Shown piece by piece: positions 2,716-6,818 of a DNA stretch of 6,818 nucleotides (positions are counted from its first letter, which is position 1; the number at the start of each line of letters is the position of its first letter). The stretch spans positions 1 to 6,818 of the forward strand of contig JACQUN010000043.1 in assembly GCA_016210285.1 (NCBI GenBank), in the 5' to 3' direction. Below the pieces are notes generated by a model that saw only the letters and a list, made by a program, of their open reading frames with translations, ran no database searches and was not told the DNA's origin. This stretch comes from Chloroflexota bacterium (GTDB lineage Bacteria > Chloroflexota > Dehalococcoidia > UBA1127 > JACQUN01). A program made the position numbers and the translations under genes.

Positions 2716-4455
2716 CTAGTCCTGGGCGCAACGAAAACCGAGGCTGACGAACGTGCTCGTCGGGTTGCCGTAGTCGCGGCCCGAGGCGGACAGGTAGCTG
2801 GTGTCATCGGCCCAGCTACCCCCCCGAATCGAGCGGGCCGAACCATTCGACGGTCCGGCCGGATTGCGCGAAGGACTCTGGGCGTAGTACTTCCCATCGT
2901 ACCAATCCGCCACCCACTCCCACACATTGCCGGCCATATCATATGCGCCGTAGGGAGAAACACCCGCAGGATAACTGCCCACTGGCTTGGTACCACCTGA
3001 GCCATAATGCGCCTTACTCTCATCTACCCCCTCCCCCCACGGGTACGTCCGCCTGTCCGTGCCCCGCGCTGCCTTCTCCCACTCTGCCTCAGTAGGAAGG
3101 CGTTTGCCAGCCCACTGACAATAGTCCCGTGCATCCCCCCAGGTCGCATTGACTACGGGGTGATCGTCCGGCTCGGATTTCGTACTCTTGCCGGTAGCCC
3201 GGGCGTACGCGTTCCACTGCGCATTCGTCACCTCGTACTGGTCAATGAAAAAAGCATCCAGATACAACCGGTGCGCCGGCTTCTCGTCACGGACTTCATC
3301 ATTCGACCCCATCACGAACTCCCCGGCCGGCACCAGGACCATCTCGCCTCCCCCACCACCAGAGGAAGTCGAGGAGGATTTTCCCTGGGGTTGTTGCTGC
3401 GTCTGCTGACGCTTCAGCGCCTCCAACTGCTGCTGCAACGCCTCCGCCTCCCGCTGCTTGCGCTGGGCCTCTGCCCGGGCCGAGTCCTCGGTGGCCTGCC
3501 GGCGCTTCTCAGCCTCGATCTGTGCCTTCAGTTTCTCGATCTGATCCTCGTACTGCTTGGACTGGTTCTGGTACTGGTTTGTTTGAGATGCCGAGGTGCC
3601 ATCTGCGCCGGACAACACGAACAGAAACTCGCCCTCTCCGCCCGACAGCCTGCCGAACTGCGGGGTCTGCGCGTTGTTCGTCTCCAGGGACACCGTCGGC
3701 TTCAGGTAAGCACCCAGCTCGCTGCCGGTAAGCACCCCGAAGGGCGGGTACTTGTCCGCGTTGCCATCCAGGGCCAGCAGCAGGTTCCGGGTGAAGGCCC
3801 CGTGGCCACCCTGCTCGACCACCTGTTCGCCGGCACTGCCCGCAGTCACCAGTTGCCGGGCCGGGAAGCGCGCCACCTTCCGCAAGTATTGCTGGTCCTG
3901 GTTGTCCAGCTCCCCGGCCCGCATAAAGGCCAACCCCGAGTAGCAGGCATCGATGGCGTAGAAGACGTGTTTGGCCGCCAGCCGCTCGGAGAACTGCCGC
4001 ACCGAGGTCATGGAGATGCAGGTGGAGAACAGGTTCGCCTTATCCCCATCCACCGGCACGATATACCCCTCCTGTTTGCCCCCTGGTAGATCCTCGGTCT
4101 GCCCGTGGCCGGCAAAGTAGAGAAACACCCGGTCGTTCTCCCCCACCTTGCGCCGCAGCTCGTCGCCCAGGATCAGCTCGATCCGCGTCTTGGTCGCCTG
4201 GGCATCGGCCAGAAAGAGGATATTCGCCGGCGGGAAGCCCAGGCCGATCAGCTTGTCCTGGACAGCCCGGGCATCCTTGACCGCGTACTGCAGGGCAGGC
4301 CACTTCTGGTACTGGTCGATGCCGATGACCACCGCCCAGGAGTTGTCGTAGAGGTCGAGCACACCCTCAGGCGTGCGCGTCACGACCTTCAGGCCGCGCT
4401 GCTGGCCAGAGGCCGGCAGGGCCAAGAAAAAGAGCCCCAGGAGGAGTAACTGCAT
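2716..4455 (-). CDS. Exported caspase-like (C14) protease with coiled coil and C-terminal FGE-like domain
   Basis: This 579-residue protein has a signal peptide at 1-17 (hydrophobic, ending ASG, but without the usual basic residue near the start). The caspase-like domain spans about 21-282: strand SWAVVIGIDQY, catalytic His117 in YFAGHG and catalytic Cys171 in DACYSG, so the dyad is intact. Residues about 292-352 are rich in Gln, Glu, Lys and Arg with coiled-coil character, followed by a Ser/Gly linker (357-370). Residues 371-579 are an FGE/SUMF1-like domain (MVLVPAGEFVMGS, KRLPTEAEWEKAARG, DMAGNVWEWVADW, RGGSW, GFRCA). The cysteine pair that makes true FGE catalytic after GGS is absent, so this is probably a ligand-binding domain. 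The likely model is an envelope protease gated by a C-terminal sensor. It lies 41 bases after its paralogue. The SD is weak (GGAAGAG, 14 bases from ATG), suggesting translational coupling or hairpin control. Cleavage specificity and substrate are unknown. Confidence 0.92.
   Translation of the reverse strand: MQLLLLGLFFLALPASGQQRGLKVVTRTPEGVLDLYDNSWAVVIGIDQYQKWPALQYAVKDARAVQDKLIGLGFPPANILFLADAQATKTRIELILGDELRRKVGENDRVFLYFAGHGQTEDLPGGKQEGYIVPVDGDKANLFSTCISMTSVRQFSERLAAKHVFYAIDACYSGLAFMRAGELDNQDQQYLRKVARFPARQLVTAGSAGEQVVEQGGHGAFTRNLLLALDGNADKYPPFGVLTGSELGAYLKPTVSLETNNAQTPQFGRLSGGEGEFLFVLSGADGTSASQTNQYQNQSKQYEDQIEKLKAQIEAEKRRQATEDSARAEAQRKQREAEALQQQLEALKRQQTQQQPQGKSSSTSSGGGGGEMVLVPAGEFVMGSNDEVRDEKPAHRLYLDAFFIDQYEVTNAQWNAYARATGKSTKSEPDDHPVVNATWGDARDYCQWAGKRLPTEAEWEKAARGTDRRTYPWGEGVDESKAHYGSGGTKPVGSYPAGVSPYGAYDMAGNVWEWVADWYDGKYYAQSPSRNPAGPSNGSARSIRGGSWADDTSYLSASGRDYGNPTSTFVSLGFRCAQD
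2740..2811 (-). other. Hypervariable C-terminal segment of the FGE-like domain (caspase-coiled coil protein)
   Basis: This encodes residues 549-572, between RGGSW and GFRCA. Only 8 of 24 residues match the paralogue, against 75 of 98 in the stretch before it (residues 451-548) and 6 of 6 just after. At the 14 positions where this family's repeats usually have Asn (549-551, 553, 554, 559, 561-564, 567, 569-571), every codon ends in C or T, so each could arise from an AAC or AAT codon by changing adenines. That is the expected pattern for a DGR variable region. No template repeat is present here. Confidence 0.5.
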
Positions 4456-4463
4456 AGGGTTTA

Positions 4464-4485
4464 TTATCTCTCTTCCAAGAGATAA
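4464..4485 (-). promoter_or_regulatory. Possible mRNA hairpin presenting the ribosome binding site of the second caspase gene
   Basis: On the coding strand TTATCTC and GAGATAA form a perfect 7-bp stem around the 8-base loop TTGGAAGA. It begins 11 bases after the upstream stop and ends 8 bases before the ATG at 4455. The only SD-like bases (GGAAGAG) lie in the loop and the start of the 3' stem. No T-run follows, so it is not a terminator. It may tune translation or mark a processing site; the AT-rich stem is only moderately stable. Confidence 0.4.
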
Positions 4486-4496
4486 AGGGACAAATG

Positions 4497-6347
4497 TTAT
4501 TTATGGCCCTGAGCGCAACGAAAGCCAACATTGGAGTCCGTAATTGTCGGACTATAGTAGTAACGGTCCGAAGCCTGCACAAAGTATGCGTGATCGCGCC
4601 AACTACCTCCTCGAACAGTCCGGTACTCACCGGTTTCTGGTCCCCGGGGATTGCGCGATGGACTCCGCGAGTAATAACCCTCATCAAACCAGTCAGCCAC
4701 CCACTCCCATACATTGCCAGCCATATCATGTACCCCATAAGGAGACACCCCAGCAGGATAGCTCCCAGTGGGACGTGTCTCGTCACCGCTATAGTTTGCT
4801 TTGCTTTCGTCCTTTCCCTCACCCCATGGATAGGTCCTTCCGTCCGTCCCCCGCGCTGCCTTTTCCCACTCCGCCTCTGTGGGTAGGCGCTTTCCTACCC
4901 ATGTACAGTAACCTTTCGCCAGGTTCCAGGTTACGCAGTTGATGGGGTGATCTTCCCGGTCAAACTTTCCCCAGTTGCAGAGACCTCCAGTAACTGGTTT
5001 TCGACAAACATCTGCTTCCACACACGCTCGGTACTGTTCCACTGTTACCTCGTACTTGTCAATGTAGTAGACATTCAGGTACACCGCACGGGCCGGCTTC
5101 TTGTTACTGTCTCCCTCATTCGACCCCATCATAAACTCCCCGGCTGGGACCAGGACCATATCTCCTTCCCTTGTATCTGACGAGGGGCGCAACGCTGGCT
5201 GCGGTGTTGGTAACTTCTCCGCTTGCGGCATCGGTGGTGGAATCGCCTCCAGTTTCATCACCACCTGCGTCCACGCGTCGGCCCGGAGTACCGCACGCTC
5301 TGTCTTCGTCTTGTAGCCGGTGGCCTCCACCCGTACCTCTACGGTTTCCACGCGCAGATCCGACAGATTCAGCGGTTGTCTTGGATTCGCCTCCCCCTGA
5401 TAGATCCCATTCACATATACCTTGCTCCCAGGGACATCGACGTTCACCTGCAAATATCCAACCTGTACGGCTGGTGGCGGAGGAGGAGGCTTGTCCCCGG
5501 CCCCTTTCAGCGTCAGCACGAAGTCTCCCTGGTCCAGTTCCGGATCGCGCAGTGTGCCGGCCTGCGGGTGCTGGGTACCGCGTGAGTAGTCCACCACCTT
5601 CTCCTGCAGGTAGAGCCCCAATTCCGTGCCGGTGAGATAGCCATCCCCGGTCACGTCCCCCTCCCCTCCCAGCGCCCTCAGCAAACTGACCTTGAACACA
5701 CTTTGATCTGGTACCGGCTCATCCCGGCCGCCGGCGGTGATGAACTGCCGCACTGGCAGGGCGCACTTCTCGCTGATGTTCTGGGGAGCGGCCCGTTGCA
5801 AGGCGAAGATAGAACCGGAGAAACAACTGTCGAAGACAAAAAGGGCGTGCTTGAAGCGCATGCGCTTGGCACACTGTTCGATCCGCTGCATGGAGACGGC
5901 TTTTTCCACAAATAGACGCGGATGAACACTCTGTAGGGGCGCATCACGAGGCACGATGTAGCCCAACTCCTCGCTGTTGGCCAGGGTTTCCGTTTCTCCG
6001 TGGCCAGCAAAGTAGAACAACACTCTGGCCTGCTCTACTTCCTTTCGGAACTCCAGATCCTTGAGCGCACCCTCCAGTGCCTGCTGATCAGGGTCGCGCA
6101 CGACAAGCACCTCAAATCCCAACTCGCTCAACACTGCGCCTATCTCCTCGGCGTCACGCACTGCATTGGGCAGATCTGGCCAGTAATCATAGTTCGACAC
6201 GCCTACCACCACTGCGTAGGAACCTTGGTACAAGGCCACCTCCTTACCTGAAGGTAACCGCACCTGCAATAGACCCCGCGATTGCTGCGCGGCTAGCGGG
6301 AGATTCAGCAGCATGCAAAGCAGCAACATCTGGATATAAAATATCAT
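4497..6347 (-). CDS. Exported caspase-like (C14) protease with PEGA domain and C-terminal FGE-like domain
   Basis: This 616-residue protein has a hydrophobic signal peptide at 1-20 ending PLAA/QQ. The caspase-like domain is at about 25-282, with catalytic His116 in YFAGHG and Cys175 in DSCFSG. An EF-hand-like loop (DVTGDGYLTGTE, 231-242) sits in its C-terminal part. A run of six prolines (287-292) leads to a PEGA domain (about 296-366; VPGSKVYVNG, YQGEANPRQPL, EATGYKT), a surface-associated beta domain. A Pro-rich linker (369-395) leads to the FGE-like domain (397-616). FGE catalytic cysteines are absent. Extra cysteines 442, 448, 457, 471 and 481 could form disulfides, fitting export. The ATG at 6347 is chosen over the longer frame from 6476, which would overlap the M24 gene. 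A GTG at 6359 would add a Lys to the signal peptide, but the SD AAGGAG would then touch the start. This is the first gene of the presumed operon. Substrate unknown. Confidence 0.92.
   Translation of the reverse strand: MIFYIQMLLLCMLLNLPLAAQQSRGLLQVRLPSGKEVALYQGSYAVVVGVSNYDYWPDLPNAVRDAEEIGAVLSELGFEVLVVRDPDQQALEGALKDLEFRKEVEQARVLFYFAGHGETETLANSEELGYIVPRDAPLQSVHPRLFVEKAVSMQRIEQCAKRMRFKHALFVFDSCFSGSIFALQRAAPQNISEKCALPVRQFITAGGRDEPVPDQSVFKVSLLRALGGEGDVTGDGYLTGTELGLYLQEKVVDYSRGTQHPQAGTLRDPELDQGDFVLTLKGAGDKPPPPPPAVQVGYLQVNVDVPGSKVYVNGIYQGEANPRQPLNLSDLRVETVEVRVEATGYKTKTERAVLRADAWTQVVMKLEAIPPPMPQAEKLPTPQPALRPSSDTREGDMVLVPAGEFMMGSNEGDSNKKPARAVYLNVYYIDKYEVTVEQYRACVEADVCRKPVTGGLCNWGKFDREDHPINCVTWNLAKGYCTWVGKRLPTEAEWEKAARGTDGRTYPWGEGKDESKANYSGDETRPTGSYPAGVSPYGVHDMAGNVWEWVADWFDEGYYSRSPSRNPRGPETGEYRTVRGGSWRDHAYFVQASDRYYYSPTITDSNVGFRCAQGHK
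4527..4598 (-). other. Hypervariable C-terminal segment of the FGE-like domain (caspase-PEGA protein)
   Basis: This encodes residues 584-607, between RGGSW and GFRCA. It has the same length (24 residues) as the paralogue's segment, but only 8 match. All 14 putative variable codons (584-586, 588, 589, 594, 596-599, 602, 604-606) end in C or T. Several differ from the paralogue in that third base (for example TAT against GGC, ATT against AGC). If DGR-derived, the two segments therefore came from different templates or have drifted since. Confidence 0.5.
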
Positions 6348-6405: not shown

Positions 6406-6818
6406 CTACCCCGGCACAAAAGCCTGGTGCCGGTCCTGGGGGATGAGCGGCCTGGTCTCCCGCTCCCCCACCACAAAGGACTGTTCCAGATGTAGGGAGC
6501 CGGCCCCCCGCATGAAGATCATCGCCTCCAGGTTGAGCACCATGCCCTGCTCCAGGGGCAGATCCGCGGGCTCGTCGACGCACTCGTCTTGCACCCGCAG
6601 CCCGGTGTCCGGCACCAGCACCGGATAGTCGCGGATCTCCAGGCCCACCCCGTGCCCGTGCGGGAAAGAGGCAGTAATGCCCTCTTTCTTGAGGAACTCC
6701 TTCATGGCGTGGTGGACAGCCGATGACCGCGCCCCTGGCCGCATGGCCGCGATCCCCTCTTCCACACAGGCGCGCAGCGCCGCATGTACTCCACAGCGCG
6801 GGGTCGGTTGAAGAGCAC
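6406..6818 (-). CDS. M24-family metallopeptidase, Xaa-Pro aminopeptidase-like (C-terminal part)
   Basis: The open frame enters at the right edge and ends at TAG 6406-6408, leaving 136 visible residues, so the N-terminus is outside. The pita-bread fold of M24 peptidases is recognisable: a helix with ACVEEGIAAMRPGA, then FPHGHGVGLEIRD with the metal-binding His, then LEQGMVLNLEAMIF and LHLEQSFVV carrying the two glutamates that complete the dinuclear metal site. These enzymes remove N-terminal residues preceding proline; some relatives are creatinases or dipeptidases, and the visible part cannot separate them. It has no obvious tie to the caspase genes beyond strand and the 58-base spacing, and may be an ordinary cytoplasmic peptidase that marks the border of the system. 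Confidence 0.85.
   Translation of the reverse strand, partial: ALQPTPRCGVHAALRACVEEGIAAMRPGARSSAVHHAMKEFLKKEGITASFPHGHGVGLEIRDYPVLVPDTGLRVQDECVDEPADLPLEQGMVLNLEAMIFMRGAGSLHLEQSFVVGERETRPLIPQDRHQAFVPG

Follow-up and report, generated by a model that had tools for sequence, protein, structure and literature searches.

Tandem caspase–lectin genes of a GC-rich contig as probable target genes of a diversity-generating retroelement

Two tandem genes for caspase-type proteins (g1 and g2) contain, close to their 3' ends, 24-codon segments (2740–2811 and 4527–4598, both on the minus strand) which probably (at a rough probability of 0.77) represent variable regions (VRs) of diversity-generating retroelement (DGR) target genes, active or recently retired, on which a reverse transcriptase (RT) and templates located outside the contig act in trans. 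The assignment is based on the register of the segments, a codon signature present in both genes, the association of this signature with DGR RTs among relatives and a related caspase-PEGA-FGE gene matched by a template. The genome would have, or have had, an RT and templates, the two proteins would be exported, and sensing would drive the caspase.

The window, i.e. the whole stretch of DNA analysed (6,818 nt), appears to correspond to an entire 6818-bp contig. Five genes were examined, all of which locate on the minus strand. These code for a fragment of an M24 metallopeptidase as upstream neighbour (6406–6816; ORF and Pfam), a caspase-PEGA-FGE-type C-lectin protein of 616 amino acids (g2, 4497–6347; ORF and Pfam), its tandem paralogue, a caspase-coiled coil-FGE-type C-lectin protein of 579 amino acids (g1, 2716–4455; ORF, Pfam matches to Peptidase_C14 and FGE-sulfatase, and a structure model), an LPP20/DUF4384 protein downstream of g1 (g3, 1053–2612; Pfam) and a WD40 repeat protein truncated by the window end (g4, 2–1039; ORF and Pfam), in which Pfam recognized eight WD40 stretches nearly alike among themselves. 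Homologues of g3 and of the caspase proteins occur on listed contigs of equal size in two cases (16632 bp, P0125 and P0252; 14268 bp, P0143 and P0222), which suggests a conserved neighbourhood. Codon usage differs between g1 and g2, with A occupying 5.7 % and 17 % of the third positions, respectively. An Rfam scan of the window yielded no matches above the gathering scores.

Peptidase_C14 was detected above the Pfam cut-off in both g1 and g2. The caspase domain of g1 spans residues 40–235 (3751–4338, minus strand; Pfam and alignment), and His117 and Cys171, which we take to be its putative catalytic pair, are invariant in all 38 sequences aligned, g1 and g2 among them. The hydrophobic N-termini of both proteins read like signal peptides. 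The structure model of g1 (mean pLDDT 84.7, pTM 0.50) contains a helix at residues 2–11 and a predicted long helix or coiled coil at residues 289–352 (3400–3591, minus strand). The FGE-type domain comprises residues 371–577 (2725–3345, minus strand), as judged from the Pfam FGE-sulfatase match, which reaches residue 577 of 579, and from PDB sequence matches. Among the latter is the variable protein of the Treponema denticola DGR (2y3c, E 3.5e-17); the best ones are to sulfatase-modifying factor 1. Together with the Pfam assignment, these best matches would fit a functional formylglycine-generating enzyme, or another one of the FGE superfamily, whose active-site loop differs between the paralogues. 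Such an enzyme is, nevertheless, highly improbable: sulfatase-modifying factor aligned to g1 has cysteines within the segment, presumably the catalytic pair of formylglycine-generating enzyme, at places where g1 has none, and Cys is absent from the 24-residue segment of both g1 and g2, which makes formylglycine-generating activity unlikely.

Read on the minus strand from 2811 to 2740, the g1 segment is ADDTSYLSASGRDYGNPTSTFVSL, flanked by RGGSW and GFRCA, with the stop codon 21 nt past the segment end; its counterpart in g2 is RDHAYFVQASDRYYYSPTITDSNV. The preliminary description had proposed a DGR variable region in g1 from a drop of identity to the paralogue and from the codons found there. 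The drop was reproduced exactly, with 75 of 98 residues identical before, 8 of 24 inside and 6 of 6 after the segment, in an ungapped alignment. It proves nothing by itself: for 407 pairs of FGE family members that match at 72–77 of the 98 upstream residues, the mean number of matches among the 24 segment residues is 8.1 (s.d. 5.0). This norm is not free of DGRs, as it includes some pairs that are DGR targets in their own right. The segment belongs to the most weakly conserved parts of the FGE alignment columns printed, with 16 of its 24 columns having an entropy of 3.6–3.9 bits over 334 family rows. Outside the segment, the third base is the same in g1 and g2 in only 44 of 98 codons, marking them as old paralogues. 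The scaffold residues Arg12 and Pro17 are retained in both.

The family norm and the age of the paralogues speak for ordinary divergence, that is, a loosely constrained ligand-binding loop between RGGSW and GFR that drifts faster than its surroundings and in a GC-rich genome acquired, by chance, small or polar residues with codons ending in C or T. The 14 g1 codons quoted in the preliminary description were confirmed, each ending in C or T. Their reachability from AAC/AAT by adenine changes is likewise true, but true by construction, as every NNC or NNT codon qualifies; it is therefore undiagnostic, as is the identity drop taken alone. Over the entire g1 segment, 19 of 24 codons end in C or T, a number attained by 7 of the 556 stretches of 24 codons in g1 (those overlapping the segment included). 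The paralogue g2, which had served as yardstick, bears the same codon signature as g1.

That FGE-like C-lectin folds are targets of DGRs was borne out within the family itself by Levilinea saccharolytica, where one RT (Pfam RVT_1), one template and four FGE genes locate within 13.6 kb (L024). The template encodes RGGSW-NNESNNIRTANRNRNNPDNRNNNI-GFRCAR. Over 72 nt, one of the four FGE genes matches it without any non-adenine mismatch and a second one with a single such mismatch; the other two have at least 13 non-adenine mismatches to any template. A further template-matching FGE gene is present elsewhere in the Levilinea genome (L189). When 104 FGE C-terminal stretches from 79 related loci were scanned for an adenine-specific repeat within the same locus, two matches were obtained, both in Levilinea. 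Of the 48 genomes of related loci, 16 contain a match to the Levilinea RT at E<=1e-15, and a blind scan of 30 loci around RT matches revealed an adenine-specific repeat pair in eight. A motif search in these 30 loci, which allowed 22–26 residues and kept templates with at least 8 Asn, retrieved 18 Asn-rich templates, all of them 24 residues long and in the same register as the segments of the window. All 18 encode Asn at columns 1, 2, 6, 13, 15, 19, 21 and 23 and Arg at columns 8 and 12, and vary among themselves at several of the non-Asn columns. With templates chosen at a minimum of 9 Asn, 16 VRs across the loci match some template at the limit of <=3 non-adenine differences in 72 nt, the actual number being 0 or 1. 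One repeat pair (L082), with 19 adenine differences and no others, has no match in the 24-residue register; it represents another target type, and the template of at least one real DGR lies outside this register. A single relative genome (G009) yielded eight DGR RT matches with E<=1e-15, of which several cover nearly the full length.

A DGR leaves C or T at the third base wherever the template has Asn encoded by AAC or AAT. The 12 Asn columns of a single template, that of Levilinea, were used for a codon test; in g1 they correspond to the codons starting at 2811, 2808, 2799, 2796, 2781, 2775, 2769, 2766, 2757, 2751, 2748 and 2745. All 12 are NNC or NNT in g1 and likewise in g2, compared to 7 (g1) and 5 (g2) of the remaining 12 columns. 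Twelve of the 14 positions that the preliminary description expected to vary coincide with these Asn columns. Two of the 14, Asp at 2808 and Tyr at 2772, are the same in the paralogue. For calibration, 143 FGE rows in register were available, after exclusion of 57 loci lacking an ungapped register of 24 amino acids: 45 from RT-positive genomes (12 of 13), 79 RT-negative, 12 ambiguous and seven from genomes without RT search. Genomes counted as RT-positive were the 13 with a best RT match at E<=1.8e-59, a line set after the matches had been seen. Three genomes were set aside as ambiguous (G029, whose RT match carries two stops, and G040 and G048 with weak matches), and none of their 12 rows has C or T at all 12 columns. 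Rows of five loci (L012, L019, L037, L054 and L069) were assigned to genomes via the contig name. A smaller table comprised 75 rows, i.e. 73 relatives plus g1 and g2, with 59 rows skipped.

The complete 12-column state was found in 20 of the 45 RT-positive rows versus none of the 79 RT-negative ones (Fisher 5e-11, rows within a genome being non-independent) and, counted by genome, in 7 of 12 versus 0 of 32 (Fisher 2e-5). The Levilinea genome, from which the column set was taken, contributes five of the 20 positive rows; without it the proportions are 15/39 and 0/79. The background share of codons ending in C or T is alike in the two classes (0.55 RT-positive, 0.53 RT-negative). Other column sets separate the classes less sharply: the eight invariant columns are all C/T in 28/45 RT-positive and 11/79 RT-negative rows, a ten-column test gave 23/45 and 8/79, and 11 of the 12 columns are reached by 10 of the 79 RT-negative rows. 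Both g1 and g2 pass the eight-column test and indeed all four column sets tried. Among the 16 template-matched VRs, 15 are all-C/T at the eight invariant columns and only seven at all 12. Some of the RT-negative genomes may be incomplete assemblies. An example is G016 (L020, L054), in which two FGE genes are identical at 93 of 98 upstream residues and at 6 of 24 in the segment, in a genome without a match to the Levilinea-type RT; perhaps its DGR relies on an RT of a different type, or on one that the assembly lacks.

Ordinary divergence draws further support from groups that keep the segment across species and lack the DGR signature, for example rows of Nitrospirales and Latescibacterota (C or T at 6–9 of the 12 columns). 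It is, on the other hand, difficult to reconcile with a state that is absent from all RT-negative rows yet complete in both g1 and g2, for which the product of the RT-negative column frequencies amounts to 0.009 per gene. Given the amino acids and the codon usage of each gene, C or T at all 12 columns has a chance of 0.017 in g1 and of 0.15 in g2. At those of the 12 columns where the encoded residue leaves a choice of codon, 11 of 11 codons in g1 and g2 together end in C or T, the corresponding share among RT-negative rows being 0.645, and Lys, Glu, Gln, Met and Trp are missing from the 12 columns of both genes. A large part of this codon signal reflects the choice of residues, and a binding loop could have the same preference; the case as read from the sequences is therefore residue choice plus third base, taken for both genes jointly and calibrated against relatives. 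On balance, ordinary divergence appears improbable. The DGR reading of the preliminary description is partly supported, on other grounds than those first given, namely register, 12-column codon signature and the template-matched caspase-PEGA-FGE relative.

This relative belongs to Rokubacteria (genome G001). Its locus (L001) was the best match to g1 in the genome_contigs collection, with 41 % identity over g1 residues 36–578, and its gene at 9821–12277 has the caspase-PEGA-FGE architecture (Pfam; PEGA just above the cut-off). Like the window genes, it combines caspase and FGE domains on one chain and shares the 24-codon register; unlike them, it has a VR for which a matching template is known. 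This template, situated in the same genome on a different contig (L090), differs from the VR by one non-adenine difference in 72 nt, with 14 of 29 adenines changed, and the similarity between the two loci drops away beyond the repeat. Since the VR matches a template elsewhere in the genome, the caspase-PEGA-FGE architecture is, or once was, diversified in at least one relative. Downstream of the Rokubacteria gene, an ORF begins as a DGR-type RT (query residues 5–95, 57 % identity) and ends in a transposase match. A literature search retrieved no paper joining the term diversity-generating retroelement with Rokubacteria.

A template within the window was ruled out, the best ungapped internal match to the VR having 25 non-adenine mismatches. 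The repeat at 605/737 found by a blind scan was likewise rejected; it falls into the WD40 repeats of g4, and the mismatch bases between its units follow base composition. No RT domain was detected by Pfam in the five window genes scanned. Searches with an exact pattern revealed no template in viral_contigs (one pattern each for g1 and g2) or in 226 loci (g1 pattern). Two hairpins on the minus strand are candidate DGR target hairpins or terminators: a perfect 9-bp hairpin with GTTA loop at 2650–2671, 68 nt past the start of the g1 GFR codons, and an 8-bp hairpin at 4464–4485, 41 nt past the start of the g2 GFR codons. A hairpin downstream of the VR is a feature of the BPP-1 phage DGR. Among the template-matched VRs of relatives, however, only some are followed by one, and because of this irregularity the hairpins were kept out of the evidence.

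At 5 of the 12 columns, g1 and g2 do not have the same third base. This rules out one shared template for both genes, so that either two templates are required or one gene has been retired. The need for two different templates is one of several observations pointing to fossil targets, whose RT or template was lost or became mismatched and whose segments now are fixed binding sites. At column 8, where all 18 templates of relatives encode Arg, g1 has Ser and g2 has Gln. Degraded RTs exist among relatives, as in G029 with its two stops and in the RT start running into transposase remains behind the Rokubacteria gene. Moreover, neither a near-identical relative nor a close strain variant was present among the best 120 proteins listed in each of two protein searches. 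Drift should, on the other hand, erode the signature, which is complete in both g1 and g2, and two rows from RT-positive genomes with C or T at all 12 columns (L019, L050) likewise lack Arg at column 8. The odd column 8 is not decisive, as the templates of relatives differ at several non-Asn columns. A fossil state, which is compatible with the preferred reading insofar as the latter covers recently retired genes, is considered somewhat unlikely.

As targets of a DGR acting in trans, g1 and g2 are probably rapidly varied sensors, judging from their sequences. The template RNA would be copied with random bases incorporated opposite adenines, and the cDNA would then replace the 3' end of the gene. 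About 12 residues of the FGE-type C-lectin domain would thereby be re-drawn, with Arg12, Pro17 and the GFR scaffold remaining fixed. The lectin domain would function as ligand sensor and the caspase domain as effector, ligand binding by the lectin tip controlling the caspase, and both would act, probably, outside the cytoplasm. A more far-reaching proposal, which we put forward only tentatively, is that an uncultured lineage possesses tandem exported caspases, each equipped with a hypermutated lectin sensor and served by separate templates in trans, which would constitute an adaptive extracytoplasmic switch from recognition to proteolysis in one polypeptide.

Several of these traits have counterparts in known systems. 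Cyanobacterial DGR variable proteins include, as described in PMC7517822, an orthocaspase-CLec architecture with targets often remote from the RT. The window proteins resemble these in combining an N-terminal caspase-type peptidase with a C-terminal C-lectin domain and a VR near the 3' end; they differ in their GC-rich context, in their hydrophobic leader and in being known here without RT or template repeat (TR). The same source states that homologues without a VR/TR match also occur in cyanobacteria and that most of the cyanobacterial variable proteins are predicted to be cytosolic. In Thiohalocapsa PB-PSB1, DGR targets are described as putative antigen sensors, with evidence for diversification in trans and with variable positions falling almost entirely on codon positions 1 and 2 (PMC10907252). 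As in the window, the CLec sensor domains of this organism bear the VR, belong to the FGE subtype at one locus and have peptidase effectors nearby. The same account assigns the peptidase effector to a protein of its own and STAND, NACHT or vWA domains to the targets, whereas caspase and sensor reside on one chain in g1 and g2, and none of these three domains was detected by Pfam in the five window genes scanned. The Levilinea target shares with the window genes the FGE type, the identical register and C or T at all 12 columns, but has an N-terminal protein kinase (one gene checked) and adjacent RT and template. Treponema TvpA (2y3c) and Thermus TaqVP (5VF4; PMC6328139) likewise belong to the FGE subtype within the C-lectin fold; they are single-domain proteins and contain no caspase. 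FGS domains of such systems have been tied to DGRs (PMC7159879), and a metagenome survey of DGRs indicates that its own approach would miss remote targets (PMC8144416).

Caspase-lectin proteins as DGR targets have thus already been published for cyanobacteria, and the window contains a probable further member of this group. With the 12-column codon test, remote DGR targets can be picked out even where the contig contains no RT. If the assignment is correct, DGR-diversified caspase sensors would extend beyond cyanobacteria to a GC-rich lineage, with Rokubacteria providing a template-matched example, and sensor and effector would be united in one protein.
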